Source: Bradyrhizobium sp. WSM1743
GTDB taxonomy: Bacteria; Pseudomonadota; Alphaproteobacteria; Rhizobiales; Xanthobacteraceae
Assembly: GCF_000473065.1 (NCBI RefSeq)
Contig: NZ_AXAZ01000032.1
Span: 1 to 64,000 of the forward strand
Reading direction: 5' to 3'
DNA: 64,000 bases
The position numbers were made by a program, and so were the translations under genes. Each line of letters starts with the position of its first letter. Within the stretch, counting starts at the first letter, position 1. The notes under the pieces are model-generated. The model did not search any database and had not been told where the DNA came from. It worked only from the letters and a program-made list of their open reading frames with translations. Of this stretch, positions 22,456 to 46,789 are shown piece by piece.

Positions 22456-22474
22456 ATCGAGGAGATAGCGCGGC

Positions 22475-24783: not shown

Positions 24784-24870
24784 GTAGCCCGGATGGAGCG
24801 CACAGCGAAATCCGGGGTCTTGCCACAAGCGACAGAGGTCCCGGATTTCGCTGCGCTCCATCCAGGCTAC
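24784..24870. repeat. Inverted repeat (GTAGCCCGGATGGAGCG type)
   Basis: Arms GTAGCCCGGATGGAGCGCAC and GCGCTCCATCCAGGCTAC, with inner CGAAATCCGGG / CCCGGATTTCG copies, form a nearly complete long hairpin. A dispersed element between FMN reductase and the metallo-beta-lactamase-fold gene. Confidence 0.85.
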
Positions 24871-26048: not shown

Positions 26049-27182
26049 TTATTTATTTGGGTTGATGAGGAATTTTTCGCCGGTGGCGCGTTTGGCGTAC
26101 ACCGCGATGTTGGCGGGATCGAGCGCCTCGGCAAGCGACACCACCTTGGTGTAGTGGCTGGCGAAGGTGGTCTTCAGCTCGGACGCCACGCGCTGGCGCA
26201 GGCGGCCGATCTCGGCCGGACCGATCTTCTGAAGGAATGGCGTGAGCAGCCAGCCGCCGACGCCCCAGGAGAGGCCGAACGAGCGGTTCAGCTCCGTCGG
26301 CCGCGTGTCGAGGCTGCCATAGATGTAGACCTGCTTGTACACGTTGGAGCCGTAGCGGCTGTACTCTTTCGCGGTCTTGTTGGCCGCAACTTCCATCGCG
26401 GTCAGAATCTGGCTCGCCAGCTTGCCGCCGCCGATGGCATCGAAGGCGATGGTGGCGCCGGTCTCGACCAGTGCGTTGGTGAGATCGTCCATGAAGCTCG
26501 GCGCGCTGGAATCCACGACGTATTTGGCGCCGATCTTGTGCAGGATGTCAGCCTGCTCCTTGCTCCTGACGATGTTGACGAGGCCGATGCCGTCCTTGAT
26601 GCAGATCTTGTTGAGCATCTGGCCGAGATTGGAGGCGGCGGCCGTGTGCACGAGCGCCTTGTGATTCTCCCGCCGCATCGTCTCGGTCATGCCGAGTGCT
26701 GTCAGTGGATTGACGAACCAGGAGGCACCGTCCGCCGCCGTGGTGCCCGCCGGCAGCTCCATGACGTCGCGGACCTTGAGCACGCGGTACTGCGTGTACA
26801 TTGCTCCGCCGATCATCGACACCGTCTTGCCCATCAGCGCTTTCGCCGCGTCCGACGAGCCGGTCCGGATCACCGTGCCGGCGCCCTCATTGCCGACCGG
26901 CAGTGACTGATCGAACCTGGCCGCCATCGTCCGCATCGCCGCCTCCGGCATCGTGGCGGTGATGACCGGCATCTCCTTGGTGCCGGAGGCCTTGGCGGCC
27001 GCCATGTCGGCTGCCCCGATCAGGAGCCCGAGGTCGGATGGGTTGATCGGGGTGGCTTCGACGCGAACCACGACCTCATCATCGGCCGGCTCCGGCGTCG
27101 GGACGTTCACGAGAGACAATTCCAGCTCGCCGCTCTTCTTCAGCAGCGAACGCAGTTCCAGTCCCGACTTGCCGTCGCTCAT
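26049..27182 (-). CDS. Zinc-independent MDR family oxidoreductase (quinone reductase-like)
   Basis: 377 residues from the ATG at 27182. Medium-chain dehydrogenase/reductase with N-terminal GroES-like domain (VVRVEATPINPSDLGLL, PVGNEGAGTVI) and a Rossmann domain (HTAAASNLGQMLNKICIK, FDAIGGGKLASQIL). Catalytic zinc Cys/His ligands are absent, as in quinone oxidoreductases (NADPH:quinone or enoyl-reductase types). Forty-odd bases downstream of eno on the same strand; possibly co-transcribed. Substrate unknown. Confidence 0.85.
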   Translation of the reverse strand: MSDGKSGLELRSLLKKSGELELSLVNVPTPEPADDEVVVRVEATPINPSDLGLLIGAADMAAAKASGTKEMPVITATMPEAAMRTMAARFDQSLPVGNEGAGTVIRTGSSDAAKALMGKTVSMIGGAMYTQYRVLKVRDVMELPAGTTAADGASWFVNPLTALGMTETMRRENHKALVHTAAASNLGQMLNKICIKDGIGLVNIVRSKEQADILHKIGAKYVVDSSAPSFMDDLTNALVETGATIAFDAIGGGKLASQILTAMEVAANKTAKEYSRYGSNVYKQVYIYGSLDTRPTELNRSFGLSWGVGGWLLTPFLQKIGPAEIGRLRQRVASELKTTFASHYTKVVSLAEALDPANIAVYAKRATGEKFLINPNK

Positions 27183-27226
27183 TTCGATCCTCCCCTGTCC
27201 ATCTTTTCCCCGGCCGAGGCGCCGGC

Positions 27227-28528
<1,302 letters not shown>

Positions 28529-28684
28529 TTAGGGCTGATCGGTGCCGCGGGTCTTACACGGGCCGCAAGCAAATGTGAACGCTTGGACGAGCCGCTTCGA
28601 CTGACGCGTGAAGCGCCTCAGATTATGCTCGACCGCATCTGGTCCGCGTGCCCAACCTCAATCTGAAACAGTCGGGGTAACGCC

Positions 28685-29662
28685 ATGAATCGCCGCCAGT
28701 TTCTCGCTTCGGGCGCTGCACTGTTCGCCGCCCGCCCAGGTTTTGCGCAGGAAGGCCCGTTCCGGACAAAATACTATCCCATCAGCCCGGGCATCGGCCT
28801 GCATGATCTCACGCCCGCCCCTGACGGCATGGTCTGGTTCACCGCACAGGGTAAGGGCCTGCTCGGCAGGCTCGATCCACGAGATGGCACTTTCAAGACC
28901 GTCAGCCTCGGCCAGGGCGCAGCGCCGCACGGCGTGACCATCGGGCCCGACGGCGCCCCCTGGATCACCGAGGGCGGCCAGAACGCGATCGCGCGGGTCG
29001 ACCCCGGCGATCTCAAGGTGACGCTGTTCCGCCTCCCCGAGAAATTCGCGCAGGCCAATCTCAACACCGGCGTCTTCGACAAGCAAGGCACCTACTGGTT
29101 CACAGGACAGTCCGGTTATTACGGCCGGCTTGTGCCGAAGACCGGAGAGATGACGGTCTTCAAGGCACCAAAGGGCATCGGGCCTTATGGCATCACCGTG
29201 ACGCCCAAGGGCGACATCTGGTACGCCTCGCTTGCCGGCAGCTACATCGCCAAAGTCGATCTTGCGACCGGCAATGCCGGCGTCGTGCAGCCGCCGACAC
29301 CGAATGCGGGCTCACGCCGCGTTTGGTCGGATTCGAAGGGCCGGATCTGGGTCAGCGAGTGGAACAGCGGCCATGTGTCGGTGCATGATCCCGCCGACGG
29401 CTCCTGGAAGACCTGGAAGCTGCCGGGCGAACGCCCCCGCGCCTACGCGGTCTATGTTGATGATAAGGACAAGGTCTGGCTGAGCGATTTCTCTGCCAAT
29501 GCCATCGTCCGCTTCGATCCTGCCACTGAAAAGTTCAACGTCTTCGTCAGCGACAAGGCGAATGCCGCCGTGCGCCAGCTCGACGGCAGGCCGGGCGAGC
29601 TCTGGGGCTGCGAGTCCGGCAACGATCGGATCGTCATGATCCAGACAATCGCCGCCGGTTGA
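28685..29662 (+). CDS. Vgb/SMP-30-like beta-propeller protein, exported
   Basis: 325 residues. A signal peptide with two Arg residues near the start ([20 protein letters not shown]) suggests Tat export. The rest consists of repeated blades ([67 protein letters not shown]), the pattern of virginiamycin B lyase (Vgb)-like propellers. A resistance lyase function is not implied; most such proteins are uncharacterised. Ribosome site is weak; ATG 28685 is fixed by the signal peptide. Confidence 0.8.
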
Positions 29663-29714
29663 CGGCAGCGGCATTTGCGTCCATCCCGGCATCCGAAAAC
29701 AGGATGTGACGACG

Positions 29715-30167
29715 ATGGCGAAAAAGTCCCTTCAGCTCGGCCGCGCGGTCGAGTGGCCGCACACACCGGAAGAAGCCCAGCTCGACCGCGTGCGCAATCC
29801 GCAAAAGGGCACCGATTACCTGGTGCGCTTCACCGTGCCGGAATTCACCTCGCTCTGCCCGGTCACGGGCCAGCCGGATTTCGCGCATCTGATGATCGAC
29901 TACGCGCCGGGTGCGTGGCTGCTGGAGTCGAAATCCCTCAAGCTTTACATCGCGAGCTTCCGCAATCACGGCGCCTTCCACGAGGACTGCACCGTCCTGA
30001 TCGGCAAGCGCATCGCTTCCGAGATCAAGCCGAAATGGCTACGCATCGGCGGTTACTGGTATCCGCGCGGCGGTATCCCCATCGACGTGTTCTGGCAGAC
30101 CGGCCGCGTGCCGAAAGGCCTGTGGGTGCCAGAACAGGGCGTCGCGCCCTATCGCGGGCGGGGTTGA
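29715..30167 (+). CDS. queF: NADPH-dependent 7-cyano-7-deazaguanine reductase
   Basis: Reduces preQ0 to preQ1 in queuosine synthesis. 150 residues, the short unimodular QueF type. Catalytic Cys is C48 in [13 protein letters not shown] with D55; the QueF motif [20 protein letters not shown] lies at about 70-95. I use the ATG at 29715, which has an AGGA ribosome site 10 bases before it, instead of the GTG at 29706, which is too close to it. The 3' 135 bases are nearly duplicated 3.8 kb downstream as a fragment. Confidence 0.95.
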
Positions 30168-30221
30168 GCCTCGGGCGTGAGCGCGCAATGCCGCGGGGCA
30201 AGCAAGCGTCGCAAGCGGTAT

Positions 30222-31985
30222 CTATTCGGGCAGCCCGGCGAGCTTCAAACCGTCATAGAAGCGATTGCGCTCCAGCCAGAACGCCGGGTTGCGCGAGTAC
30301 TCGGATGCTTTCAAGCTGCTGACAGTGTGGCCCGGACTACGTTTTTGATACTCGATCAGGTTGGCTTTGGCCTGTTCGCTGCGCCCGTGCAGCGCATCGA
30401 TGGCGGCGAGCCATTGCCAGGCAAAGCCATTTTGTGGACTGCTGATCGTCGCCTGGCGCATATGCGCGTAGGCAACATCGTCGTGGTGCAGATGGAATTC
30501 GGCCATTCCGAGCGTAAAGTAGCCTCGGCTCACCTGCTCGGAGTCCAGGGGATCGAGACGGAGCGAGAGCATGACCGGCTCGGCGACCTCTTCCGGACGG
30601 CCTTGTTGCAGTTTCAGAAAGCCAAGTCGCTGGAGCGCGCGCGGCTGGTTCGGATAGAGCGCAAGCACGCGATGGATGGCCTGTTCCGCGTCATCGATCC
30701 GACCTTGCACGGACAATACGAGGCTGCGCACGTAGTTTGCGCGGGGATCATTGGGCTGGAGCGCCAATGATCGTTCGATCGCCTGGGCCGCAAGCGTGGT
30801 TTGGCTCTCTGGCGCCTCGCTCCATCTGGCCAACACCTCTGTGATGTAACTGAGGGCAAGTCCCGTCAACGCAGACGCGGAATCGGGATCTAGTTGCAGT
30901 GATTGCTCGAACAGAGCCCGGGCCCGCTGCGCCTCCGCCTGCGTGCGCATGCGCTTCAGCGAGCGCCAGCCCTGCAGCGTCGGATCGATGGCTGCGAAGG
31001 TGCGCCCGGCATAAGGCCTCTCAAAAGACGGTCCGGCCTCGTCGATGCGGACCTTCAGCTCATTGGCGATGCGTGCGGAGACGTCGCGCCGCCAATTCCA
31101 TCCGGCTTGTTCAGCGTAGTCGAACCGACCCGACCACACCACTGCGTCGGTGGCACTCGCCTGCAGCTTCAGGGCGATCGAGACGGCTTCGCCTTGGCGC
31201 TGCACGCTGCCACTCAAAACATAAGCAACGTGCAATCGGCGGCCGAGCTGCGACGCATCGCTATCGGGCCCAGGCCCCATCGGAGGTCCGATCACGAGCG
31301 TGTCGGGCAGGCGCGAGATTTCGATCATGAGATCGTCACTAATGGCCTCGGCGAGGTCGGCGGCGTTTTCGCCGCCGACACCCGCGAGCGGCAAAATCGT
31401 GATCGTGTTCTTGCTGACGAGGCCGCCGGTTTGTCCCCGGTGTGGAAGCCCGAACCAGAGCGCGGCGCTAAGTGAGACGGTGCAAGCGATCCCGAGTGCA
31501 ACCAGCCACGGCAATGATCGGCTGCGCGCCGCCACGAGTGGCGACGAGGCCTGCGTGCGGGCGGCATTCTCCCCGCCGGCGGGCGCATCAAGAGCAGGTG
31601 GCGCATCGAGGAACGTTGCGTCCAGCAAATAGCCACGGCGCGGTACGGTTTTGATCAACCGCTGATCGCCGCCCAGTGCCGCTCGAAGCTCGCTGATGCA
31701 CTGGACCAAGGAATCGTCGGTGACCGCCACATTGGGCCAAACCGCGTCCGCCAGCTCATCCTTGCTCAACAGCCGGCCGGGATGACGGGCGAGATGAACC
31801 AGCAGCGCAAAGCTCTTCGGGCGCAAGGCGACCGGATCGCCGCGGACACGCAATTCGCCGCGCTCCAGGTCGACGTCAAAACCGGCGAAATGAAGCGTGC
31901 CAAGAGAAGGCCGGCGAGAAGCCGGGCTCAATTCGTCTCCACCAGCCGTGCCTGGTTTGGTTTTCGTGCCAATTTCGGCGTTCAT
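30222..31985 (-). CDS. ToxR/CadC-like membrane regulator with TPR domain
   Basis: 587 residues from the ATG at 31985. An OmpR/PhoB winged helix at about 40-125 (LRPKSFALLVHLARHPGRLL, SELRAALGGDQRLIKTVPRR), one membrane helix at about 165-185 (SLPWLVALGIACTVSLSAAL), then a periplasmic part that has a TolB-N/adenylate-cyclase-associated segment (ITILPLAGVGGENAADLAEA, a FlgO-like ISDDLMIEISR) and TPR repeats from about 350 on (ARALFEQSLQLDPDSASALT). Such one-component sensors bind DNA while in the membrane. Divergent from a Tat amidase gene, its likely target. Confidence 0.82.
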   Translation of the reverse strand: MNAEIGTKTKPGTAGGDELSPASRRPSLGTLHFAGFDVDLERGELRVRGDPVALRPKSFALLVHLARHPGRLLSKDELADAVWPNVAVTDDSLVQCISELRAALGGDQRLIKTVPRRGYLLDATFLDAPPALDAPAGGENAARTQASSPLVAARSRSLPWLVALGIACTVSLSAALWFGLPHRGQTGGLVSKNTITILPLAGVGGENAADLAEAISDDLMIEISRLPDTLVIGPPMGPGPDSDASQLGRRLHVAYVLSGSVQRQGEAVSIALKLQASATDAVVWSGRFDYAEQAGWNWRRDVSARIANELKVRIDEAGPSFERPYAGRTFAAIDPTLQGWRSLKRMRTQAEAQRARALFEQSLQLDPDSASALTGLALSYITEVLARWSEAPESQTTLAAQAIERSLALQPNDPRANYVRSLVLSVQGRIDDAEQAIHRVLALYPNQPRALQRLGFLKLQQGRPEEVAEPVMLSLRLDPLDSEQVSRGYFTLGMAEFHLHHDDVAYAHMRQATISSPQNGFAWQWLAAIDALHGRSEQAKANLIEYQKRSPGHTVSSLKASEYSRNPAFWLERNRFYDGLKLAGLPE

Positions 31986-32121
31986 TCGGCGCTCTTTCGG
32001 GTGTCGCGGCGCCAGCGCGCCTAATCTTTCCCACGGCGACGATGCCGTCGTCACGCTTGCCCGCAATGCTAATCCAAATCGAGGGGAATTGGCACGTGGG
32101 ATCGGCCAAAGGGAGCCAGCC
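31986..32121. promoter_or_regulatory. Divergent promoter region, regulator / amidase
   Basis: 136 bases between two divergent starts. A CGACG-ATGC-CGTCG dyad lies at about 32037-32050 and is a candidate operator for the ToxR-like regulator. The amidase ATG is preceded by AAAGGGAG. Confidence 0.4.
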
Positions 32122-33705
32122 ATGACCATGGACCGACGTTCGTTTCTCGGGGTGGCCGCCAGTACCATCGTGACCCTGGCGGAGACAGCGCCGAGCCCGG
32201 CCTCCGGCCAGGCGGCCCTGCCGCCGTCCCCTTCGGGGCGCGACCTGGCTTATGCTAATGTTAGCCAATTGCGAGCATTGCTCGATGCACGCAAGATATC
32301 GGCAACGGAATTGGTCGAGCACGCGATCGGCCGGATCGAGGTCCTTGATCCCCGCGTCAATGCGGTGGTCGTCCGTGACTTCGAGCGGGCCCGCGCGGCG
32401 GCGCGCGACGCGGACGCCGCGCTCACGCGTGGTGAGCGCCGGCCGCTGCTCGGAATCCCCATGACGGTCAAGGAGTCCTTCAACGTCGGCGGCCTGCCGA
32501 CCACGTGGGGTTTACCGACCGGCCGCGATTGGCGGGCCGCCGAAGATGCTGTGGCGGTCACCCGGCTAAAGGCGGCGGGAGCCGTGATCCTGGGCAAGAC
32601 CAATATCGCCTTATCCATTGCCGACTGGCAAAGTTCCAACCCTATCTATGGGACGACGAACAATCCGTGGGATCTCAAGCGCTCGCCCGGCGGCTCATCC
32701 GGCGGATCGGCTGCCGCGCTGGCGGCCGGCTATGTGCCGCTGGAGCTAGGGTCCGATCTCAGTGCTTCGCTGCGCGTGCCCGCGCATCTGTGCGGCGTGT
32801 TCGCCCACAAGCCCACCTTCAATCTGGTCCCGCAGCGCGGCCATGCGCCGCCGCGCTCGCCGGCCCTGGGGACCGATTTGACTAATGGAATGGGCGTCTG
32901 CGGGCCAATGGCCCGCACTGCCGCTGATCTGTCGTTGGCATTGGATGTCATCGCCGGACCGGATGACTATGAGGCTGCGGCCTACCGCCTCCAACTTCCT
33001 CCCCCGCGACACGATATGCTGAAGGAATTTCGCGTTCTGGTGCTCGACAGTCATCCTCTTTTGCCGGTGGCGCAGGAGATACGGGACACGATCGATCAAC
33101 TCGCGAACCGACTGGCAGCGACAGGTGCGACGGTCGCACGATCCAGCTCGCTGTTACCCGACCTCGCCGAGTCCGCTCGCTTGCATACCCGCCTGGTGCG
33201 CAATTTCACCGCGTTCGGCCGCCCTCCCGAGTTCTTCAAGGAGATTCAGGAGAAGGTCGCAGCGCTGAAGCCGGATGACGACAGTCTGAAGGCCTGGCGG
33301 ACGCGCGCGCCGCTGCTGAGTCACCACGAGGTGATGGCAGCGGAAATCGCGCGTGCCCGTCTGCGCCAGCAATGGACCGGTCTGTTCAGGGAGTTCGACG
33401 TGGTTCTCTGTCCGCCGTTTGCCGTGACTGCATTCGCGCACGATCACAGGCCGGATCAGGAGGATCGCACGATCGATATCGACGGCGCGCACCACCCCTA
33501 TTTGTCCCTCATCGTATGGGCAACGCTCGCGACGCCGCCTGGCTTGCCCGCAACGGTGATACCAGCCGGGCAATCGAAGACCGGCCTTCCCATCGGCGTC
33601 CAGATCATCGGCCCCCTGTACGAGGACCGCACCACCCTTGCCTTCGCCCGATTGCTCGAACGGGAGTACGGGGGATTTACAAGGCCGCCGGATATAGCTC
33701 GATGA
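32122..33705 (+). CDS. Amidase-signature enzyme with Tat signal
   Basis: 527 residues. Tat-type signal (MTMDRRSFLGVAASTIVTLA). Amidase signature serine hydrolase: catalytic Lys in IPMTVKESFNVGG, cis-Ser in the SPGGSSGGSAAALAAG run, and nucleophile Ser in GSDLSASLRVPAHLCG (the usual GGS before the Ser is replaced by SAS). Hydrolyses amides; substrate unknown. The frame is open upstream to 31897, but the signal peptide and AAAGGGAG ribosome site choose 32122. Divergent from the ToxR-like regulator. Confidence 0.9.
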   Translation: MTMDRRSFLGVAASTIVTLAETAPSPASGQAALPPSPSGRDLAYANVSQLRALLDARKISATELVEHAIGRIEVLDPRVNAVVVRDFERARAAARDADAALTRGERRPLLGIPMTVKESFNVGGLPTTWGLPTGRDWRAAEDAVAVTRLKAAGAVILGKTNIALSIADWQSSNPIYGTTNNPWDLKRSPGGSSGGSAAALAAGYVPLELGSDLSASLRVPAHLCGVFAHKPTFNLVPQRGHAPPRSPALGTDLTNGMGVCGPMARTAADLSLALDVIAGPDDYEAAAYRLQLPPPRHDMLKEFRVLVLDSHPLLPVAQEIRDTIDQLANRLAATGATVARSSSLLPDLAESARLHTRLVRNFTAFGRPPEFFKEIQEKVAALKPDDDSLKAWRTRAPLLSHHEVMAAEIARARLRQQWTGLFREFDVVLCPPFAVTAFAHDHRPDQEDRTIDIDGAHHPYLSLIVWATLATPPGLPATVIPAGQSKTGLPIGVQIIGPLYEDRTTLAFARLLEREYGGFTRPPDIAR

Positions 33706-33721
33706 TCAGCTCGGGCGTTCA

Positions 33722-33814
33722 GTGCTGCAAGCAGAGCGGACGTCGGTGAGCGCCGATGTGGAGTTCGAGACAGACCACGGGCGTGTCGGCAAGCACATCG
33801 GCGCTGCGGCTTCT
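33722..33814 (-). pseudogene. Remnant of a glsA-like cNMP-domain 3' end
   Basis: Reading the minus strand gives [17 protein letters not shown], which matches SRSADVFADTPITCLEL in the C-terminal cyclic-nucleotide domain of the intact glutaminase fusion at 37644-39518 (region about 37744-37831). Similarity fades after this and the copy is only about 90 bases. It cannot be a gene. It has the same orientation as glsA and lies directly against the queF remnant. Confidence 0.75.
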
Positions 33815-33822
33815 CCCCGGGA

Positions 33823-33958
33823 CCGAAGTTCTTACGCATCGGCGGCTACTGGTATCCGCGCGGCGGCATCCCGATCGACGTGTTCTGGCAGACCGGCCGC
33901 GTGCCGAAAGGCCTCTGGGTGTCCGAGCAAGGCGTCGCGCCCTATCGGGGGCGGGCTA
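33823..33958 (+). pseudogene. Remnant of a queF 3' end
   Basis: These 136 bases match the last 135 or so bases of queF (30030-30164) with roughly 14 mismatches by eye, in the same orientation; the translation [20 protein letters not shown] continues as in QueF. The copy lacks the first 105 codons including the catalytic Cys, and its stop codon is lost (reads RGRASSS instead of RGRG-stop). Non-functional. Confidence 0.9.
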
Positions 33959-33972
33959 GCTCGAGCCTGCGT

Positions 33973-36900
33973 TCACCACGCGTACCGCACCATGCCCTTG
34001 CCTGCGTAGGATCGCGTGACGCCCGAGAATTCGCCTTCGAACGTGCCGGCGGCCGACCAGCCGTTCAGCCACTTCTTCTCGACCGATCCCGTCACCAGTG
34101 CCGAGTCCGAGGCCATCGCCGCGCCGTTCACGACGAAACTCGCACCGGGCAGCGTCTGGAACGTGGCGCCAATGACACGGTCCGGATTGAAATCATGCGC
34201 CCAGGCAAGCCGCCCGCGCAGCGTGACGATGCCGTCGGCCTGAGCAAAGGCCTTATCGGTGCGCAGGCCGAGCTCGGTCCGGGTGTCGGTAACGGTTCTG
34301 GCGCCGTACGTCAGCGCAAACTGGCTGCTGCCAACGATCGCCTGCTCGGCGTAGGCCGGCAGGTCGAAGGTGGTGAACTGGGCCGACGCATAAGGCGTGA
34401 GACCGACGCCATGTGCCACGAAGCGATAGCCGCCTTCGAGCCGGCCGGAATATGTGTTGGCATCGAACTCGGCGCGCAGGCGGTCGACGCCGGCAACCGT
34501 CACCGTGCGATCGGTCGTGATATTCTGCCAGCCATAGGCCAGCGCGCCGGAGATGTAGGCTGGCCCCACGACATGCCGGAAGAACGCGCCGGCCTGGAAC
34601 AGGTCCGACCGGCCGCCACCGAGCGCATTCGCCACGGTAAAGTTGGTGCCGCCGCCGGCAAGCGCGAAGCCGACCAGCGTATCGCGGGAGATGCGATAAT
34701 CTGCGCCGACAGCGGTGCCGTAGAGGTTGCTGGTGGTGGTGTTCGAACCGATGCCGGTGTTTCCGTCGGTTTGCTGCGCCCCGCCGAACGCCGCTGCCCA
34801 GACGCTCCACCGCTGCTCGAACGAGGGCGCAACCGGCGCCTTGGTGTAGATCGCGGCAAAAGCATCGCGCTCGGTCTTGCTGTGACCTGCGCTCTTTGCC
34901 GCATAAGCCAGGCTCTCGTCGGCATAAGCGTTCGAAGCACCATCGGCGCTGATGGGCTCGCCGCGCCCGGCGATGAACGGGTCCGTCATCACGCCCATGA
35001 ACTGGTTCATGGCATTGAACGTCGCCTGCTGGGGCGCGCTGCCCACCTCGCCAGAGAGCTGCGTCAAGCCGCTAGGCGTAAGGCCGCCGAACGCGACCGG
35101 GATCGTGCCGTTGGTGTTGAAATAATTGATGATCGCGTTGCCGACGTTCTGCTGATTGCCGTTGAGATTGCCGGACGGGGGCACGAAGTTCAGCGCAAGA
35201 TTCAGATAGGCATGGGTGGTGTCATAGCTCAGCGTCGTGTGGAAGCCCGACGGCAGGCCGGTGTTCGCCACGATGGGATCGAAATGGCCGCTGATGCTGC
35301 CCGCATTCAGGATCGTGTACTGCTTGGCGACGTAAGAGCCAGCGACAAAATGCGCACCGACGGTGGCGCCGCCAAGTGTTGCGCTTCCCGTCACATTGGC
35401 AAAGCTGGAGGTTACGGGATCGACGAAAACACTGAACAGGGCCCCTGATTGCATCGCGAGGCTTGCCACGGTCATGGACGTTCCCGGCCCGCCCGCACCG
35501 CCCGGCGAGAAAATGCCACCCGCGGTGACCTGGAGCGCCCCCACCGTGCCGATGCCGGCCAGCGCTGCAGTCGCATTCACCGTGGTGAGGCTCGATGACG
35601 CCATCGAGCCATCGACAACGAGCGTGCCACCGTTGACCGTGGTCGTGCCCGTATAGGCGCTGCCGTCGCCCGTCAGGCTCATGATGCCGGAGCCGGTCTT
35701 CACGAAGGCGCCACTCCCGGTCAAGGATCCCGCGAAGGTCGAGGACGAATTGTCGCCCCCGACGGTGAAGACAAACGCGCCCGTATTCAGCTGGGTGCCG
35801 GCAACGCCTGCGAGCGAGCCGTAGGTCGCACCGCCGGAGGTCGAGTAGACATTCGCGCCGGCAACCGTCAGATCCACCCGTCCCGTGACGCTCCCGCCAT
35901 AGGTGTTCATCGAAGCGAGACTGCCGGACAGTGTCGCGTTGCCGTTGATCGTCCCATAGAGCTGGATGTATCCGCCAGCGGCGTTGATCGATCCATTGAT
36001 CGTCCCGGTGGGGTCGACGACAATATTGGCGCCGATGGCGTTGCTGATAGTGTTTGTCGCATTCAGCGTTCCCGTGACTCCGAGATTGCCGTTGTTGGTC
36101 ACGTTCGTCGCATTGACCGCCCGGCCGGCATCGATTGATGTCGCGTGAATCATCGCATTGGACTGGTTGATCAGCGTCGTGACGGTGAGATCGCCGCCTG
36201 AGACAAAAAGGTCTGATGTGGTACCGGTGGTCAGGGTCCCGTTGACGGTGAGCGCACCGGTCACCGTGAAAGTACCGCTTTGATGGTCGACGTTGCCGTT
36301 GATCGTGCCGGCTGCGTTCGCGGTGCCGGAATTCGTCAGTCCGCCATTGACCGTTCCAGTCGTCGTGAAGGTGCCGCCGGCTGCGTTCGTCGTCCCGGCA
36401 GTCGTCGTTACCGTACCGCCGTTGGTGAAGGTGCCGGCGTTGTTGGCGATGCTGGTCGCGCTCAGCGTCCGGCCTGCCGAGACCTGGACCGCGGTGGCCG
36501 AGGTCGAATTGTTCGTGAGCGCCGTGATGCCGGTGAAGCTGCCGAACTGCACGGCCAGGGTCGACGTCCCGTTGTTGGTCACCGCACCATTGGTGGTGAG
36601 ATCGCCGATCAGCGCGAAGGAGCCGCTGCCCTGGTTGGTGATGCCATCGTTGAACACGCCCCTCGCGTTGGCTGTGCCCGAATTCGTCAGCCCGCCGTTG
36701 ACCGTGCCCGTCGTGTTGAAGGTGCCGGAATTGGTCGTGCCGCCGGTCGTCGTGATCGAGCCGTTGTTGAAGATCGTGCCACCGTTGTTGGCAATCGTGG
36801 TCACGGAGACGACGCCGGCGGGAATGTTGGAGAAATTGCCGGTGTTGGTGATGTCGCCGGTCAGGGTGCCTTGATTGCTGGAGATCGCACTGTTGGTCAG

Positions 36901-37410
36901 CGACGTGTTCAGAGTGCCGGTGTTGATGAAGGTTCCGGCGGTCACGCTGGTGGTGTTGAACGAGTTGGTGCCGGACAGCGTCAACCGGCTCGACCCTGCC
37001 TGCGAGATCGTGGCGCCCGTCATGTTGTTGCTGATCGAGATGAAAGTGCCGACGCCGACGGCATTGTTGGTGATGCCGCTGAAAAAATTCACCGCCTGAC
37101 CGCTTATCGTGTAGCCCGGGGACGCAGCGTCGAAAATCCAGGACTGGGGTACGATGGGGCCAAGGGTAACGGTGACGGCCGTCGTGCCCGTGCCGGAAAA
37201 GGTCGCGGTTTCGCCCGCGTTGGCGGGGACGGTGCCTGTCGACCAATTGGTCGGCTCGTTGTAATTGCCGTTGTCGACCCCGCCGTCCTGCCAGACCTGC
37301 GCTCGCGCCAGGGACGGCAGCAATAGAACCGTCGCAAGAGCTGTGCCGGCCAACAAAGCCCTAGTTAAGACGGCCCCACGCGTGAGTCCAACCCCGCCTG
37401 CCCCGATCAT
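33973..37410 (-). CDS. Large autotransporter with C-terminal beta-barrel
   Basis: About 1145 residues from the ATG at 37410 (a TTG at 37458 is a weaker alternative; the ATG has an AGCGGGA-like site). Signal peptide with [20 protein letters not shown]. The passenger (about 45-860) is very rich in Asn, Thr, Gly and Ser, with repeated [15 protein letters not shown] units, typical of a beta-helix adhesin. The C-terminal about 280 residues form a 12-strand autotransporter barrel ([11 protein letters not shown] start; ends in aromatic W, YAW, as BamA substrates do). Surface-exposed; likely adhesion. Low codon-bias contrast aside, the passenger is not matched to a named adhesin. Confidence 0.9.
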
Positions 37411-37643
37411 TGAAATCCCGCTGGGCCCCTGCGCCACCCTCAATTGCCAGATAATCAAAACAGGAAATATCTAGCTGCTTCGCCACCGTCGAACCATCGA
37501 CAACCGGTTTCGTCGCAGAATGAGTCGGCGATTTCCCCTGCGGTGTGATTGGAGAGCAACAGAGGGTTGCATATTTACCGGGCACCCGGCAAGATCGGAC
37601 TGGAATTTCGGTCAGCCGTGAGGCGCATCAATGCGCCCAACCT
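37411..37643. other. Intergenic region upstream of the autotransporter
   Basis: 233 bases between glsA (minus strand, ending 37644) and the autotransporter start. It should hold the autotransporter promoter. I see no clear operator or repeat. Confidence 0.3.
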
Positions 37644-39518
37644 CTAATATGCGCTCAGCAGATCGACCTTCGCGTTTGCCAGCACCAGCCGCCGCGCCAG
37701 GATCGCGGCGAGATTGCGCATGATCTTCAGCGACGTCTCCGGGTGCAGGCGGCGATAGTCGGCAAAGCTGTCGAGCGGCAGTTCGAGGCAGGTGATGGGC
37801 GTGTCGGCGAAGACGTCGGCGCTGCGGCTTTGTTCCAGGATCGCCATCTCGCCGAATTCCATGCCGGGGCCAAGCGAGGCAAGCCGTACGCCGCTGCGCA
37901 GCTTCACGCTGACCATGCCGCTCTGAAGAAAGAATAGCGAATTGGCGGGTTCGCCAGCAGCGATGATGCGCTGGCCGGCCGCGTAGTGCCGCGTGGTCGA
38001 CAGCTTGACGATGGCGGCGATCTCGTCGGAGTCGAGCTCGGCCAGCAACGCCTGTTCGCCGAGATGTGCGCTCTCTTTGAAATCGGTGAAGCCGCCGAAA
38101 CGGTAGATCACCTGGTCTTCGGCCCATTCGATGGCGTCATCGAGCAGCGCGAAGCGCCGCAGCCGGCGCGGCTCGGCCGTGCGTGCGGCGATCGCGGTCC
38201 ACACTGCGGAGGTCTCCTCGAAGCCGGACAGAATGGTGGTAACGCCGGCGTTGCCGAGCGCGGTCAGCGTCTCACCGAGCAGCTCAGCACCGGCCGCGGT
38301 GATGTCGGGAACGCGGCGGAAATCGATGATCAGGAGCGGCGCGTTCGGCGGCTCGCTGGTGAGCCGTCGCGTGACATAGTCGATGGTACCGAAATTCATC
38401 GCGCCGACCAGCTCGAGAACGCGGATGTCGCGATGGCGCTCGTCGAGGATCTGCTGCTCATGGGGCTGACGGCTGCGGCGCGAGGAGATGCCGTAGATGT
38501 CATAATCCGCCATGATGCTGGTGCGGACGTCGGCGTTTCGGTTGAGCATGTGCAGGTCGAACCGCGCCGACAGCGCCTCGCAAACCTTGAGACCGCGTAC
38601 GCTGTTGAAATGGTTGTCGAGCAGCGGCGAGAAGGTGCCGAGCCCGAGCTGCGAGGGCAGCGCCGCGACGATGCCGCCGCCGACGCCACTCTTGGCGGGA
38701 ATGCCGACGCGATAGGTCCACTCGCCGGCATAGTCGTACATGCCCGAGCTCGTCATCACCGATAGCGTGCGCGCGACGATGTGCGGCGTGATCACCTGCA
38801 CGCCCGTGACCGGATTGATGCCGCGATTGGCGAGCGTTGCCGCCATGACCGCAAGGTCGCGCGCGGTGACCAGGATTGCGCATTGGCGGAAATAGACGTC
38901 GAGCACGGCGTCGACATCGTCCGGCAACACCGCGTAATTCCGCAGCAGCCAGGCAATGGCGCGGTTGCGGTTGCCGGTCGCGGTCTCCGAAGCGTGCACG
39001 GCCTCGTCGACGCCGAGGTCGCGGCCGGCAAATTGGCTGAGCTTGGCGCGGACGCGCTCGAAAGCGCCCTTCCCGTCCACGTCGTAGATCAGGCCCGAGC
39101 AGGCGATCGCGCCGGCATTGACCATGGGGTTGAACGGGCGGTTGTCGTTGGTGAGCCGGATCGAGTTGAAGGCTTCGCCGCTCGGCTCGACGCCGATGGT
39201 GGCCGCGACGCGCGCCTCACCGACCATCTCCAGCGCCAGCGCGAAGACGAACGCTTTGGACACCGACTGGATCGTGAACGGCACGGCGCTGTCGCCAACC
39301 TCGTAGACATGCCCGTCGATGGTCACGAGCGCGATGCCGAAATGATCGGGGTTGGCGCGCTTCAGCTCGGGAATGTAGTCGGCAAGCTCGCCGGAATTGT
39401 CGGCTCGGAATTCGGCGTGGCAATCGGCCAGGAAACGTCGCAGCGGCGGCTTGGTGAGATATCCGGTCGAGCGGGGCGTGCCGGCTGCGCTGGCCGAATG
39501 GCTGGTCTGGACGTCCAC
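37644..39518 (-). CDS. glsA: Glutaminase fused to STAS and cyclic-nucleotide-binding domains
   Basis: 624 residues from a GTG at 39518 preceded by GAGGTG. N-terminal 1-320 is a glutaminase (serine-dependent, beta-lactamase-like): PFTIQSVSKAFVFALAL with catalytic Ser-X-X-Lys, FNPMVNAGAIACSG, and KSGVGGGIVAALPSQLGLG. Residues about 355-465 are STAS-like (LELVGAMNFGTIDYVTRRL) and 480-610 a cNMP-binding domain (FFLQSGMVSVKLRSG, FGEMAILEQSRSADV). Converts glutamine to glutamate and ammonia; the extra domains suggest control by a nucleotide or protein signal. The frame stays open upstream into the MFS gene's shadow; that fusion is not real. Confidence 0.93.
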   Translation of the reverse strand: MDVQTSHSASAAGTPRSTGYLTKPPLRRFLADCHAEFRADNSGELADYIPELKRANPDHFGIALVTIDGHVYEVGDSAVPFTIQSVSKAFVFALALEMVGEARVAATIGVEPSGEAFNSIRLTNDNRPFNPMVNAGAIACSGLIYDVDGKGAFERVRAKLSQFAGRDLGVDEAVHASETATGNRNRAIAWLLRNYAVLPDDVDAVLDVYFRQCAILVTARDLAVMAATLANRGINPVTGVQVITPHIVARTLSVMTSSGMYDYAGEWTYRVGIPAKSGVGGGIVAALPSQLGLGTFSPLLDNHFNSVRGLKVCEALSARFDLHMLNRNADVRTSIMADYDIYGISSRRSRQPHEQQILDERHRDIRVLELVGAMNFGTIDYVTRRLTSEPPNAPLLIIDFRRVPDITAAGAELLGETLTALGNAGVTTILSGFEETSAVWTAIAARTAEPRRLRRFALLDDAIEWAEDQVIYRFGGFTDFKESAHLGEQALLAELDSDEIAAIVKLSTTRHYAAGQRIIAAGEPANSLFFLQSGMVSVKLRSGVRLASLGPGMEFGEMAILEQSRSADVFADTPITCLELPLDSFADYRRLHPETSLKIMRNLAAILARRLVLANAKVDLLSAY

Positions 39519-39625
39519 GGTCTCACACCTCAATTTGCTCAGAATCGAAGCAATTCGTGTGCCATGTATACTGGGCCGACGGTGTCGTGGCGGGGAGCGA
39601 CGCCCGCTTGGGTCACCGAAGCACG

Positions 39626-40831
39626 TCAGCGCGCATCCGCCGGTGCACGCGGCTTGAGCAGCCGGGCGCAGACGAGGCCCAGCACCACCATGATCGCGGC
39701 GCTCGCAAGCAACGTCGGCACCTTGCCGCCGTGCTGGAGGCCGAAGCCGTAGGCGAGCGGCCCCACCGTCTGCCCCATGAAGAAGAAGAACGAATGCAGC
39801 GACAGCGCGGTGGCACGCGCCTCGACCGAAAGCTCGCTGGCAAACACTTGCAGGCAGCCATGGGCCATGTAGAAGCCCCAGCCCATCACGATGAGATTGA
39901 GCGCCTGGATCTCCCAGCGCGGGCCGAAGGCGACAGCGACGAGCTGCGAGGCGACGAGTGTCATCCCTGCGATCATCATGCCTTTGACGCCGAGCCGCGG
40001 CAGCATGCGCGACACCGTCAGCGTGTAGAGCAGTCCACCCACCGCAAAGCCGGCGATGACGATGCCGGCGATCGACAGCGAGGTCTGCCCAAGCTCGAAC
40101 AGGAACGAGGCGATGTAGGGAAACAGGCCGAGCACGCAGCAGCCTTCGATGAATACGGCCGAGTAGCAGACATAGGCGTTCGGATTGGTGAAGATGGTGC
40201 GATAGCCGGCCTTCAGCGCCGACAGGCTGGTCTTCGGCGGATGCTTGACCTTGGCGCCCTTGAAGCCGGCCGCAACGGCGATCGAGGCGACGATCACGAG
40301 CGCACCGAGCACCGCGAGCACGCCGCGCCAGCCGAGGAAATCGCCGATCAGGCCGGAGGCCGAGGCGCCGAGCAGATTTCCGGTCATGGCGCCTGCAAGC
40401 GTGCGGCTGATCGCGACCTGCCGCTTCTCGGGGCCGACGAGATCGCTGGTGAGGCTGAGCGCCACCGGAAACACGCCTCCGGAGCCGATGCCAGCCAGAA
40501 TGCGGGTGACGAACAGCAACGAGAACGAGCTCGAGAGCGCACCGAGGATGTTGGCGAGGCCGAGCAGCGCGAGGCAACCGATCATCAGTCGGGTCTTGCC
40601 GAACAGGTCGGCGGCGGCGCCGATGATCGGCTGGATGATCGAGAAGGTGAAGGCGAACACCGCCGCAAAGCCGGCGGCGGTGGCGATGCTGACGCCGAAA
40701 TCCTCAGCGACGTGCGGCAGCACCGGATCGAGCGCGCGCGCCGACAGAGCCGCGGCGAAGCTTGCGCCTGATATGACGTAGAGCGCTGCCGGCAAGCCGT
40801 GATCGTGCGGCCGCGCCTCGTCTTGCTGCAT
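39626..40831 (-). CDS. MFS transporter
   Basis: 401 residues with twelve hydrophobic helices typical of the major facilitator superfamily. The loop motif GAAADLFGKTRLMIG lies between helices 2 and 3. The start codon shares a base with the stop of kdsA (TGATG), so the two are translationally coupled. Probably a drug or sugar/organic acid exporter of the DHA1 group (12-TMS, 400 residues); substrate unknown. It ends about 107 bases before the glsA start. Confidence 0.88.
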   Translation of the reverse strand: MQQDEARPHDHGLPAALYVISGASFAAALSARALDPVLPHVAEDFGVSIATAAGFAAVFAFTFSIIQPIIGAAADLFGKTRLMIGCLALLGLANILGALSSSFSLLFVTRILAGIGSGGVFPVALSLTSDLVGPEKRQVAISRTLAGAMTGNLLGASASGLIGDFLGWRGVLAVLGALVIVASIAVAAGFKGAKVKHPPKTSLSALKAGYRTIFTNPNAYVCYSAVFIEGCCVLGLFPYIASFLFELGQTSLSIAGIVIAGFAVGGLLYTLTVSRMLPRLGVKGMMIAGMTLVASQLVAVAFGPRWEIQALNLIVMGWGFYMAHGCLQVFASELSVEARATALSLHSFFFFMGQTVGPLAYGFGLQHGGKVPTLLASAAIMVVLGLVCARLLKPRAPADAR

Positions 40832-41679
40832 CAGCGCGGATTCTTTGCGAGCGCGTCGAACGCCATCAGCCTGGCGATCAGTCCCTCGAACTCGCGCAGC
40901 GGCACCATGTTGGGCCCGTCCGAGGGCGCGTGATCGGGATCAGGATGGGTCTCGATGAAGACGCCGGCAACACCGACCGCGACGGCCGCGCGTGCCAGCA
41001 CGGGCACGAACTCGCGCTCGCCGCCCGACGAGGTCCCCTTCCCGCCCGGCTGCTGCACCGAATGGGTGGCATCGAAGATCACGGGCGCGCCGGTGGTGCG
41101 CGCCAGGATCGGCAGTGCGCGCATGTCGGAGACCAGCGTGTTGTAGCCGAAGGACGCGCCGCGCTCGGTGACGAGCACGTTGGGATTGCCGTTGCTCGTG
41201 ATCTTGCTCACGACGTTGGCCATGTCCCACGGCGCCAGGAACTGGCCTTTCTTGACATTGACGACCTTGCCGGTCGCGGCCGCCGCCAGCAGCAGATCGG
41301 TCTGCCGGCACAGGAAAGCGGGTATCTGCAAGACGTCCACGGCCTGCGCCACCTCGGCGCATTGCGTGGCCTCGTGCACATCGGTCAGCACCGGCAGGCC
41401 GAGCGAGGATCGGATCTCGGCGAAGATCGGCAGCGACTGCGCCAAGCCCAGCCCGCGCGTCGCCGCCGCGCTGGTGCGGTTGGCCTTGTCGAACGAGGTC
41501 TTGTAGACGAGGCCGATCTTGAGCCGCGCCGCGATCTCCTTCAGTGCGGAGGCGACCTCCAGCGCATGCTGGCGGCTTTCGAGCTGGCAGGGCCCGGCAA
41601 TGACCGAGATCGGCAGATCATTACCGAACTTGACCCTGCCGATGGTGACGACCGGCGCCGCTGATGTCGAAGAGCTCAA
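40831..41679 (-). CDS. kdsA: KDO-8-phosphate synthase, metal-dependent type
   Basis: Condenses PEP and arabinose 5-phosphate to KDO-8-phosphate for lipopolysaccharide. 282 residues from a TTG at 41679 preceded by GAGGGA; the frame is open to 41730 but the ribosome site picks the TTG. Catalytic loops: IAGPCQLES with the Cys that distinguishes metal-dependent from E. coli-type KDO8P synthases (Asn there), [21 protein letters not shown] and [10 protein letters not shown]. Upstream of the MFS gene and overlapping it by one base. Confidence 0.95.
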
Positions 41680-41791
41680 GGCAAATCCCTCGTTTCGGCG
41701 CGACCATAGCCGCCATGAGGGTCGGATCAACCCTATTAGGCCCGGGCCGTTCGAATATCAGGGTTGCGCCAGGGTTCCCTGCCCGCCGCCG

Positions 41792-42118
41792 CTACTTCAC
41801 CGCCGAGAAGGCGGTCGGCGCCAGGATCTGGCTGACGATGTTGGCGACGATCTGGCCATCGGCCTCCGACTTCGCCCGCGCCTCAAGCCAGTCCGGGTCG
41901 GTCGCGAACGCGCCCCACTTCTTCTCGCGCTCGGCGAGCGAATCCCAGGCCAGGAAATAGGTCAGCTCCTGGTTGGATTCGCCGATCAGCGTGGTGAAGA
42001 ACCCGGCCTGCTTGATGCCGTGCTTCTCCCAAATTTTCAGCGTGGCGGTCTCGAACCGCTTCAAGAGCGCCGGCAGGCGGCCGGGCACGCAGCGATACTG
42101 GCGCATTTCGTAGATCAT
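41792..42118 (-). CDS. NIPSNAP family protein
   Basis: 108 residues, single NIPSNAP/dimeric alpha-beta-barrel domain: YEMRQYRCVPGRLPALLKRF at the start, then EKHGIKQAGFFTTLIGESNQ and LTYFLAWDSLAEREKKWGAF. Function in bacteria is unclear; ferredoxin-like folds of this type are often small accessory or substrate-modifying proteins. Transcribed alone, divergent from the response regulator. Confidence 0.85.
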   Translation of the reverse strand: MIYEMRQYRCVPGRLPALLKRFETATLKIWEKHGIKQAGFFTTLIGESNQELTYFLAWDSLAEREKKWGAFATDPDWLEARAKSEADGQIVANIVSQILAPTAFSAVK

Positions 42119-42244
42119 TCATGTTTCTCCCTGAACAGGCCCGGGGGTTATAGCTGGCGACCCCGGCGGTGTCTTGAGCCCTACCCGTCGGCCCCCTGTG
42201 GCGTTCTGTGCATGGCTTGAGCTTCCGCCGCTGCATCAGACTCC

Positions 42245-42262
42245 CGCAATGCTGCCGCAATG
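42245..42262. promoter_or_regulatory. Direct repeat CGCAATG-N4-CGCAATG, candidate operator
   Basis: Two CGCAATG copies, the second starting 11 bases after the first (spacer CTGC), 45 bases before the ATG of the OmpR-type regulator. OmpR/PhoB-family regulators bind 11-bp-period direct repeats. The same element occurs at 44397-44414 before the methyltransferase. Confidence 0.65.
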
Positions 42263-42306
42263 ATCGGGCCGCTACAAAGGCTCGGTTGCGGTTCAGGTGC
42301 CCTTAC

Positions 42307-42984
42307 ATGCGGATTTTGCTGGTCGAGGATGAAGCGGAGATGGCCGGCGCGCTGGCCTCGGCGCTGAAGCGCTACGACATGGTGGTGGACCACGCGCCGA
42401 CGCTCGCCGAGGCGGAGGAGGCCATCTCCGCGGACGTCCATGCCGCGGTCCTGCTCGACCGCCAGCTTCCTGACGGTGATGGCCTCGCCTTGATCCCAAA
42501 GCTCCGCGCGCGCGCCGACGGCGTGCCGATCATCGTCCTGACTGCGCGCGGGGAGCTTGCCGACCGCATCGCCGGGCTCGACGGCGGCGCCGACGACTAT
42601 CTGGCAAAACCGTTTGCCGTCGAGGAGCTGCTGGCGCGACTGCGGGCCGTGCTGCGCCGCCCCGCCGGCCTTTCCCCCGATGTCATCCACGCGGGCCGCC
42701 TCGCCTTCGACCTCAGTCATCGCGAAGCCAGCATCGACGGCCAGCCGTTCGAGCTGCCGCGCCGCGAGCTCTTGGTGCTTGAAGCCTTGGTCCGTCGCAT
42801 GGGCCGGACCGTGCTGCGCTCGGCGCTGGAAGAGGCGGTCTACAATTTCGACGACGAGATCCAGTCCAACGCGCTCGACACGCATGTCTCCCGGCTGCGG
42901 CGAAAGCTCGCGGAAGCCGACGCGGGCATCGAGATCCACGGTATTCGCGGCGTCGGCTATCTCCTCAAGAAGCTGCCAGCCTGA
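42307..42984 (+). CDS. OmpR-family response regulator
   Basis: 225 residues from ATG 42307. Receiver with acidic residues in LLVEDEAEM, phospho-acceptor D51 in VLLDRQLPDGDG, LTARGE and Lys in DDYLAKPFAVEE. The winged-helix output domain (about 130-220) has LVLEALVRRMGRTVLRSALE and DTHVSRLRRKL. Followed 10 bases later by its histidine kinase, so they form a cognate QseBC/TctDE-like pair. The direct repeat upstream suggests autoregulation. Confidence 0.92.
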   Translation: MRILLVEDEAEMAGALASALKRYDMVVDHAPTLAEAEEAISADVHAAVLLDRQLPDGDGLALIPKLRARADGVPIIVLTARGELADRIAGLDGGADDYLAKPFAVEELLARLRAVLRRPAGLSPDVIHAGRLAFDLSHREASIDGQPFELPRRELLVLEALVRRMGRTVLRSALEEAVYNFDDEIQSNALDTHVSRLRRKLAEADAGIEIHGIRGVGYLLKKLPA

Positions 42985-42994
42985 AGAAGCTGAT

Positions 42995-44371
42995 ATGAGC
43001 AAACACGACGATCCCTATTGCCTGCGCTCGCGCTTGAGCTGGCGGCTGCTCTCGCTTCAGGCCGCGATCCTGGTCGCGCTGGTTGCAGTCGTCCTGGCCG
43101 GGCTTTGCGCCTCCGGCTTCGTGCTGGCCGAGCGCGACGAGGACCACGTCATCGATGTCGTCCAGCGCGCGCTCACGCGCGACGCGCAAGGTGGACTGGG
43201 CTTGCGGCCGACGGCCGAGCTGCAGCAGTTGCGCAGCGAGACGCCGGACCTCTGGTTCCTGGTGCGCGACCGGCAGGGTCGCTTCCTCAGCGAAGGCACC
43301 GTGCCGGCCGAATTTGCCGCGATCGGCGGTGGCCTCGACCAGATCAGCCAGGCGCGGCTCGGCTGGCAGCTGTTCGAGGACGATCCGCGCAAGCCGGCGG
43401 CGCGGATGAAGAGGGTCGACACCGATGTGGGCAACGTGCAGGTGATCACGGCGACACAAGGACGCCTGACCGGCGCCAAGGCACTGGTCACGACATCGCT
43501 TGCGTTCCTCGGCATCGCCCTGCCCGGCCTGCTCCTGATGGGAACGGCGACGTTCATCGCAACGCCCATGATCGTACGGCGCGCGTTCAGGGGGCTCGAT
43601 ACCGCGGCGGACGAGGCGCGGCGCATCGACATCCATCAGCGCGGCGCGCGGCTCCCGATAGAACGGATTCCGCTGGAGGTCGTGCCGCTCGTGACCGCGA
43701 TCAACGACGCGCTGGCGCGGCTCGACCAGGGCTATGCCCGCCACAAGCGCTTCGTCGCGGACGCCGCGCATGAGCTGCGCACGCCGATCGCAATCCTGAA
43801 CACGCGCCTGGAGTCACTTGCCTCTGGGCCGGACAAGAATCGCCTGCTGGAGGATGCCGCGCGGCTGGCGACGCTTGCCGAGCAATTGCTCGATATCCAG
43901 CGACTCGACCGCTGCGGCCATCCTTTCACGCGCGTCAATCTCGCCGCCGTTGCGCAAAGCGTCGCCGCCGACCTCGCGCCGCTGGCGATTGCCGCCGGCT
44001 ACGAGCTGGCGCTCGATGCGCCGTCGACACCGGTCGAGACGATCGGCGATGCGGCGGCCCTGGAGCGCGCGCTGACCAATCTCGTGCAGAATGCGATCCA
44101 GCATGGCCCGCGCCGCGGCACGATCGGGATTCGCGTCGGCAGGCCCGCGAGCATCGAGGTCACGGATGAAGGCGCCGGAATTCCCGCCGATCAGCGCGAG
44201 CAAATCTTCGAGCCATTCTATCGGCTGGCGCCGCTCGATCGCGGTGCCGGCCTCGGCCTCAACATGGTGCGCGAGATAGTGCAACTGCATGGCGGCCACG
44301 TTTCGGTGGCGGACGGACCGGAGGGCGGCGCCTGCTTCCGGATGACGCTACCCGAAGTCAGGCAGAATTGA
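42995..44371 (+). CDS. Membrane sensor histidine kinase, QseC/TctE type
   Basis: 458 residues. Membrane helices at about 22-45 (LQAAILVALVAVVLAGLCAS) and about 165-190 (ALVTTSLAFLGIALPGLLLM), periplasmic sensor between them, HAMP-like segment, then the phosphoacceptor H259 in VADAAHELRTPIAILN, N box LVQNAIQHGPRRG and G1 DEGAGIP. C-terminus GLGLNMVREIVQLHGG is the G2 box. It follows the regulator by 10 bases. Signal unknown. Confidence 0.92.
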   Translation: MSKHDDPYCLRSRLSWRLLSLQAAILVALVAVVLAGLCASGFVLAERDEDHVIDVVQRALTRDAQGGLGLRPTAELQQLRSETPDLWFLVRDRQGRFLSEGTVPAEFAAIGGGLDQISQARLGWQLFEDDPRKPAARMKRVDTDVGNVQVITATQGRLTGAKALVTTSLAFLGIALPGLLLMGTATFIATPMIVRRAFRGLDTAADEARRIDIHQRGARLPIERIPLEVVPLVTAINDALARLDQGYARHKRFVADAAHELRTPIAILNTRLESLASGPDKNRLLEDAARLATLAEQLLDIQRLDRCGHPFTRVNLAAVAQSVAADLAPLAIAAGYELALDAPSTPVETIGDAAALERALTNLVQNAIQHGPRRGTIGIRVGRPASIEVTDEGAGIPADQREQIFEPFYRLAPLDRGAGLGLNMVREIVQLHGGHVSVADGPEGGACFRMTLPEVRQN

Positions 44372-44396
44372 TTCAATCCGCATTCGCTTCCCCCGG

Positions 44397-44414
44397 CGCA
44401 ATGCTGTCGCAATG
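44397..44414. promoter_or_regulatory. Direct repeat CGCAATG-N4-CGCAATG upstream of methyltransferase
   Basis: CGCAATG-CTGT-CGCAATG with the same 11-base period as at 42245, 64 bases before the methyltransferase ATG. A third, partial copy (CGCAAC) follows. This makes the methyltransferase a likely target of the adjacent two-component system. Confidence 0.65.
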
Positions 44415-44438
44415 CGCTCCCGCAACACTGCATGCGTC

Positions 44439-44456
44439 GCACCTCCTTGGAGGTGC
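44439..44456. promoter_or_regulatory. 18-base perfect palindrome before methyltransferase
   Basis: GCACCTCC-TT-GGAGGTGC at 44439-44456, 22 bases before the ATG. It could form an RNA hairpin near the translation start (GGAGG lies within it), and so could hide a ribosome site, or be a protein operator. The functional ribosome site for 44479 appears to be CCGGAGCG just after it. Confidence 0.45.
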
Positions 44457-44478
44457 AAATCAAAATGCCGGAGCGCGC

Positions 44479-45141
44479 ATGCCCAACGATTTTCTCTCGT
44501 TCTTCCTCGCCTGGATGTCGGCCCCGCGTCGGGTCGGCGCGGTCGCACCGTCGAGCGCGGCACTGGCGGACCTCATCACGCGCGAGATCGACGCATCGAC
44601 CGGCCCCATCCTCGAGCTCGGGCCCGGCACCGGCGCGTTCACCTACAAGCTGCTGAAGCGCGGCGTGCGTCAAGAAGACCTCACGCTGGTCGAATACGGC
44701 TCCGATTTCATGAAGCTGCTGCAGATCCGCTTTCCCGGCGCACGCGTGCTGTGGATGGACGCGGCGAGGCTCACCACGCATCGCCTTTATGACGGCGCCC
44801 CGGTCGGGGCCGTGGTCAGCGGATTGCCTCTGCTCAACATGTCCATGCGCAAGGTCGTCTCGATCGTCAGTGGGGCATTCAGCTACATCCGCCCAGGCGG
44901 CGCCTTCTACCAGTTCACCTACGGCATGAGCTGCCCGGTGCCGCGGCCCGTGCTCGACCGGCTGGGCCTGCGCGCTAAACTGGTGGATCGGGCGCTGCTG
45001 AACGTCCCGCCGGCCGCTGTCTACAGGCTGACGCGGCGGCCACAGGTGAAGTTGATCACGGGATCGCTTGCGCCCGAACCGTCAGCGCGGGTGGCGTTGA
45101 AGCCGATGCATCACGCGCGCGACCACTCCGCCGCGCGTTGA
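44479..45141 (+). CDS. SAM-dependent methyltransferase, phospholipid N-methyltransferase-like
   Basis: 220 residues from ATG 44479. Class I SAM-binding motif LELGPGTGAFTYKLLKRG, acidic loop LTLVEYG, and SGLPLLNMSMRKVVSIV. The sequence and length resemble the PmtA group of Rhizobiales phospholipid N-methyltransferases, which convert phosphatidylethanolamine toward phosphatidylcholine; rRNA dimethyltransferase-like folds are close relatives and the assignment is not certain. The upstream extension of the frame has no ribosome site. Placed just downstream of a two-component system on the same strand. Confidence 0.78.
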   Translation: MPNDFLSFFLAWMSAPRRVGAVAPSSAALADLITREIDASTGPILELGPGTGAFTYKLLKRGVRQEDLTLVEYGSDFMKLLQIRFPGARVLWMDAARLTTHRLYDGAPVGAVVSGLPLLNMSMRKVVSIVSGAFSYIRPGGAFYQFTYGMSCPVPRPVLDRLGLRAKLVDRALLNVPPAAVYRLTRRPQVKLITGSLAPEPSARVALKPMHHARDHSAAR

Positions 45142-45145
45142 GCCG

Positions 45146-46789
<1,644 letters not shown>

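Follow-up and report, generated by a model that had tools for sequence, protein, structure and literature searches.

A repeated queF 3' end between two gene blocks of Bradyrhizobium sp. WSM1743, probably left by import of DNA from a relative

In Escherichia coli, circularised linear DNA has been found to place cargo between partial direct repeats of its target: 56 of 60 clones gave a duplication PCR product, and 14 sequenced clones repeat 109-950 bp of the target, an outcome explained by a single crossover of a circularised molecule (PMC3240628). Stacking that resembles homology-facilitated illegitimate recombination (HFIR) has been proposed for the T6SS effector-immunity modules of Vibrio cholerae, where cargo is added by a conserved anchor, older 3' material is pushed downstream, and orphan remnants of foreign affinity occur without an integration site (PMC5361080). 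Element-free hotspots, which are variable intervals between conserved genes, are exchanged at flanking core genes by double homologous exchange (PMC5635113), from which no stubs would be expected. In pneumococcus, transformation yields merodiploids in which imported DNA makes a tandem duplication; these are repeat-dependent, carry long duplicated stretches and are unstable (PMC3784515). These statements follow the cited portions of the four reports.

We describe a locus of Bradyrhizobium sp. WSM1743 that shares features with each of these systems. The window analysed is a stretch of 64,000 nucleotides (contig NZ_AXAZ01000032.1, positions 1 to 64,000), in which cargo likewise lies between partial direct repeats of a target gene, queF. 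Such repeats measure 77-260 bp among the loci reported here; unlike the E. coli products, they are natural and arose between species, and the circle is one that we infer. As in Vibrio, cargo appears to have been added by a conserved anchor, with a remnant of foreign affinity displaced downstream and without an integration site, but the cargo is a regulator, an amidase or an autotransporter, and the remnant comes from the conserved flank gene itself. The interval varies between conserved genes and its scanned proteins carry no recognised mobile-element domains, as in element-free hotspots, whereas one end of the join is illegitimate here. Targeted searches of the literature on HFIR and Bradyrhizobium queF hotspots, with some papers judged by title, returned no report of this locus. 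The best reading is a scar of a type that is seldom met but understood, and not a simple local duplication.

The gene pieces and their seam

The queF-glsA region is made up of the following parts, given in window coordinates with the evidence in brackets.

29706..30167, + strand: intact queF (Pfam QueF, 2.7e-29; 95.8% to relative G059)
30030..30163, + strand: queF 3' end that is repeated at the seam (window self-BLAST)
30222..32168, - strand: regulator ORF, Trans_reg_C plus TPR; the extent is that of the ORF and the start is provisional (ORF and Pfam)
32122..33705, + strand: amidase (Pfam Amidase, 4.1e-93 for the whole ORF 31897-33705, within which we picked an ATG as the start)
33706..33825, - strand: internal glsA piece, cNMP-binding part (local alignment to 37726-37843)
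33823..33825, no strand: seam, 2-3 bp common to the glsA piece and the queF stub (local alignment)
33823..33955, + strand: queF 3' stub (self-BLAST and alignments to relatives)
33973..37458, - strand: autotransporter (Pfam Autotransporter, 6.8e-47)
37644..39518, - strand: intact glsA, with glutaminase, STAS and cNMP-binding domains (domain scan)
39626..40831, - strand: MFS transporter, the right border of the hotspot as measured (domain scan)

The seam pieces occupy the stretch bounded by the stop of the amidase at 33705 and the end of the autotransporter gene at 33973. In the window self-comparison, the queF stub at 33833-33955 is identical to 30040-30162 at 114 of 123 positions (92.7%, E 9e-46); when relatives are used for comparison, its start moves to 33823, giving 133 bp at 95.5% to relative G117. 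The glsA piece was found in the same self-comparison at 33762-33812 against 37780-37830 (42/51, 82%, 52.7 bits), and a local aligner extends it, with gaps, over the whole of 33706-33825, about codons 559-598 of 624. The best score reached by 500 random Markov-1 120-mers was 37.4 bits. Chance similarity of the seam pieces is ruled out by the self-comparison scores and this random-sequence control. The overlap at the seam is 2 bp when counted as exact in the local alignment and 3 bp if the donor had a C. Among 265 genomes of the genus, only the window's own gave a match across the seam at E <= 1e-9.

The first-pass annotation of this DNA had placed a glsA 3' fragment and a queF fragment back to back, each in the orientation of its parent, in the order queF, regulator, amidase, glsA piece, queF piece, autotransporter, glsA. 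Self-BLAST and local alignment bear out the adjacent pieces and their orientations, their similarity to the intact genes is significant by the scores above, and the order is correct. The glsA piece is real, but it is internal rather than the exact 3' end of the gene. Its similarity to the glsA genes found does not go beyond 77-88%, so that it had probably decayed to a remnant already before the join.

The hotspot and its haplotypes in relatives

The queF region was fetched from 136 of 146 genomes of the genus and, together with the window, gave 137 loci; left out besides the window's own genome were G016 (no match), G033, G049, G074, G097, G098 and G100 (short contigs), and G088 and G116 (overlooked). 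The interval from queF to the MFS gene is a variable hotspot in Bradyrhizobium, measured in 132 loci at 8 to 10085 bp with a median of 2.8 kb. Of the 137 loci, 93 lack all four cargo genes (88 with an MFS match and 5 without), and 38 have glsA alone. Two loci carry regulator-amidase-glsA (G117, G127), two carry autotransporter-glsA (G059, G079), one has the autotransporter alone (G066, which also has a glsA piece), and one, the window, has all four. A mechanical count of ORFs in the hotspot gave 291 of at least 150 aa in 94 clusters, spurious ORFs included. Sixteen proteins, cargo proteins of other loci included, were scanned for integrase and transposase domains and none was found; the lone mobile-type match was TraI_C in a G042 protein, below its cut-off. 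Separately, glsA is split into two frames in L157, L168 and L190 and is reduced to a C-terminal remnant in L059, L061 and L210, and these six loci point to repeated decay of glsA at the queF locus.

Comparison with G059, which reads queF-autotransporter-glsA without a stub and without regulator-amidase, delimits the insert. Window positions 33835-46000 align unbroken to G059 (91.5%), and 26538-30163 align up to the end of queF. The window is the G059 arrangement plus an insert at 30168-33834, whose only genes are the regulator and the amidase, with the queF 3' end repeated; no loss of resident DNA at the insert is seen relative to G059. Among 14 relatives tested, G059 is nearest to the window outside the hotspot, with outer flanks at 95% (8 kb) and 94% (12 kb). 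The window autotransporter is 88.1% to G059 and 87.9% to G079, and the six genomes nearest to the window glsA do not include G059. By these identities the two genes have no marked likeness to G059, which fits an imported right half and an imported left half equally. G104, the second close relative, has an almost empty interval, and this leaves the resident haplotype in doubt.

The regulator-amidase module is 95% to G117 by DNA comparison, from which the identities of this module were taken. Separate transfer of the module is only suggested, because this value exceeds that of the outer flanks to G117 (88-91%) but not that of eno (96.0%) or of the stretch at 45.2-46 kb (95.7%). Of 265 genomes, 15 (the window's included) have the module almost complete, with more than 3.2 of its 3.5 kb. 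In the window, G117 and G127 it is at the queF locus, and seven others have it on a different contig or well away from queF; at 9 of the 11 named loci with both regulator and amidase, neither queF nor glsA was found within the fetched flank. The G127 module is 120 bp from glsA at the queF locus, with a solute-binding protein gene between queF and the regulator.

The two queF copies in the window differ in their affinities. Among the 136 other intact queF genes, 49 are nearer to the stub than is the window's own intact queF. Twelve sites differ inside the stub and seven of them can be assigned; at all seven the intact queF is G059-like and the stub is G117-like. At the other five, the intact queF stands alone at three, the stub stands alone at one, and the stub agrees only with G127 at one. 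To the left of the crossover block all seven assignable sites agree with a reciprocal switch of parental alleles within the repeat; to its right, one site only (+11) supports such a switch. G104 is missing from the site table because the anchor pattern did not match. The copies are separated by nine synonymous and two replacement codons, and one of the latter, F109, is a natural allele; the longest run common to both copies is 41 bp. In this comparison G117 represents a lineage and not a proven donor, and G080 and others have part of its site states. With a careful tree of 48 rows, the AU test did not reject a sister relation of the intact queF and the stub (p-AU 0.459). A quick tree of 141 rows had a free search likelihood worse than that of its constrained trees, which made its AU tests uninformative. 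L180_stub was excluded from the tree.

Origin of the seam

The seam is probably a tandem join of two haplotypes, queF-regulator-amidase-glsA and queF-autotransporter-glsA, formed by import of a relative's DNA. Such an import would have had one side set by homologous exchange and the other end-joined with the 2-3 bp overlap. A donor fragment with its ends inside queF and inside glsA would have been circularised by end joining, which would create the junction of glsA piece and queF, and the circle would have entered by a single crossover in the queF 3' end. The result would be an intact queF followed by the cargo, with a queF stub ahead of the resident autotransporter and glsA. This course brings together what is observed, namely the two pieces and their seam, haplotypes that occur apart in relatives, queF copies of differing affinity, and the recurrence of stubs. 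A circle entering by single crossover leaves its cargo between partial direct copies of the target with no resident loss, and this arrangement is found in the window. Pure insertion, a partial repeat and a microhomology seam together match circularised DNA and a single crossover as described in the cited part of PMC3240628, whereas HFIR proper has deletions there.

Either half may have been the import. Nearly as good as the circle is a right-anchored import of a block of queF stub, autotransporter and glsA beside an older remnant of queF-regulator-amidase-glsA. Because neither the autotransporter nor glsA shows a marked likeness to G059, the stub may have arrived with the left insert, on a circle, or with the right block.

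The first-pass annotation had instead proposed that the queF...glsA segment was duplicated in tandem. As an in-place event, one deletion would have fused glsA copy 1 to queF copy 2, and regulator-amidase and the autotransporter would have been inserted separately. Order and orientation agree with this, and sister copies are compatible with the AU test. The queF copies of G117 are 98% alike, for which reason local duplication is possible in that genome. Several relatives have queF and glsA side by side (glsA directly follows queF in L050, L062 and L073, for example), and both a partial duplication and an ancestral queF-glsA neighbourhood stand. In-place copying with cargo filling the gaps later is the weaker reading, and we consider it unlikely: the copies differ in allele affinity at every assignable site, their differences are mostly synonymous, more than a third of other intact queF genes (the 49 above) are nearer to the stub than the window's own, and G059, the closest relative tested, has neither the stub nor regulator-amidase. 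Two extra insertions would also be required, although relatives show either cargo by itself in the queF-glsA interval (the autotransporter in G059 and G079, and regulator-amidase in G127). The annotation's fallback, that the queF fragment came from a relative's DNA, is favoured by the evidence, with the proviso of the AU result.

Left-anchored HFIR differs from the preferred import in that the stub would be native: a donor piece of queF-regulator-amidase-glsA piece would have recombined upstream and been joined illegitimately into the resident queF. It offers one homologous and one illegitimate end, and the same model has been proposed for the stacked Vibrio modules in the cited part of PMC5361080. 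We hold it to be distinctly improbable, since it predicts a G059-like stub (if G059 carries the resident allele) but the stub is G117-like throughout the assignable sites. HFIR also goes with deletion and 3-10 bp of microhomology in the cited part of PMC3240628, whereas a duplication is seen here, with 2-3 bp, of which the upper value would reach that range.

Stubs at other loci and further repeats

Stubs of the queF 3' end occur in 5 of the 137 loci: the window (123 bp by self-BLAST), G117 (260 bp), G110 (228 bp), G120 (224 bp) and G042 (77 bp). All are 3' ends in direct orientation downstream of an intact queF, and they have four different starts, one of them common to G110 and G120. Ku homologues were found in all 6 of 6 genomes with stubs and, among 14 control genomes, in Bacillus subtilis only; Ku might have had a role in the proposed circularisation.

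The G117 locus reads queF-regulator-amidase, then about 17 bp of the queF end with the last 41 codons of the autotransporter, then the queF 3' stub and glsA. Its autotransporter remnant is 92% to the G059 stretch, and the layout looks like the same process having acted twice. Both halves of the G110 locus are haplotypes of relatives: its cargo directly follows queF in L178 and L170, and the sequence after its stub directly follows queF in L190, L071 and L154. In G066 a glsA piece of 200 bp runs directly into a vgb piece of 95 bp; the queF expected next is missing, and this seam is independent of the window's. G023 has a 41 bp glsA 3' repeat, and the MFS 3' end is repeated in both G108 and G042, probably through one shared event.

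Loci L078 (G110, about 3632-5022) and L082 (G120, oriented, about 3632-6571) have the same flanks and the same first base of the stub with wholly different cargo between the intact queF and the stub, an FkbM methyltransferase versus a guanylate cyclase/TPR protein. Either a swap of cargo or a breakpoint that arose twice may lie behind this.

An element that integrated site-specifically at the queF 3' end, brought a replacement end and later lost its integrase would account for the uniform placement of the stubs and for the G110 and G120 pair, but is very improbable given the varied starts with no constant attachment core, the lack of integrase and transposase domains in the 16 proteins with TraI_C of G042 below its cut-off, and the occurrence of vgb, glsA and MFS stubs as well. 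An attachment site at the stub start was rejected, as the starts differ between loci. With regard to a transposon, the domain scan found no transposase domain in the window insert proteins.

We tentatively raise the possibility that end joining is a general route, in which core-gene 3' stubs would be the footprint of Ku-aided circles that enter by one crossover and add cargo to element-free Bradyrhizobium hotspots. The direct repeats would let cargo loop out again, and haplotypes would be stacked and resolved in cycles. The window would offer a natural, datable intermediate of hotspot turnover, with two cargo haplotypes adjacent and the seam still readable. If stubs are general, one-sided imports could be counted from this mark in the sequence even where a genome has no recognisable mobile elements; double homologous exchange leaves no such mark.

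Other repeats were noted elsewhere in the window. Positions 22374-22457 form an imperfect palindrome of a repeat family whose half-site pattern has 69 forward and 84 reverse occurrences in the genome itself, often as facing pairs, and 0 in a backwards control. A palindrome at 24784-24870 resembles a second repeat family (related half-site 12 forward and 22 reverse, control 0). Positions 16834-17031 and 19040-19237 form a 198 bp direct repeat (86%), which we take to be the lipoyl domains of neighbouring dehydrogenase genes.
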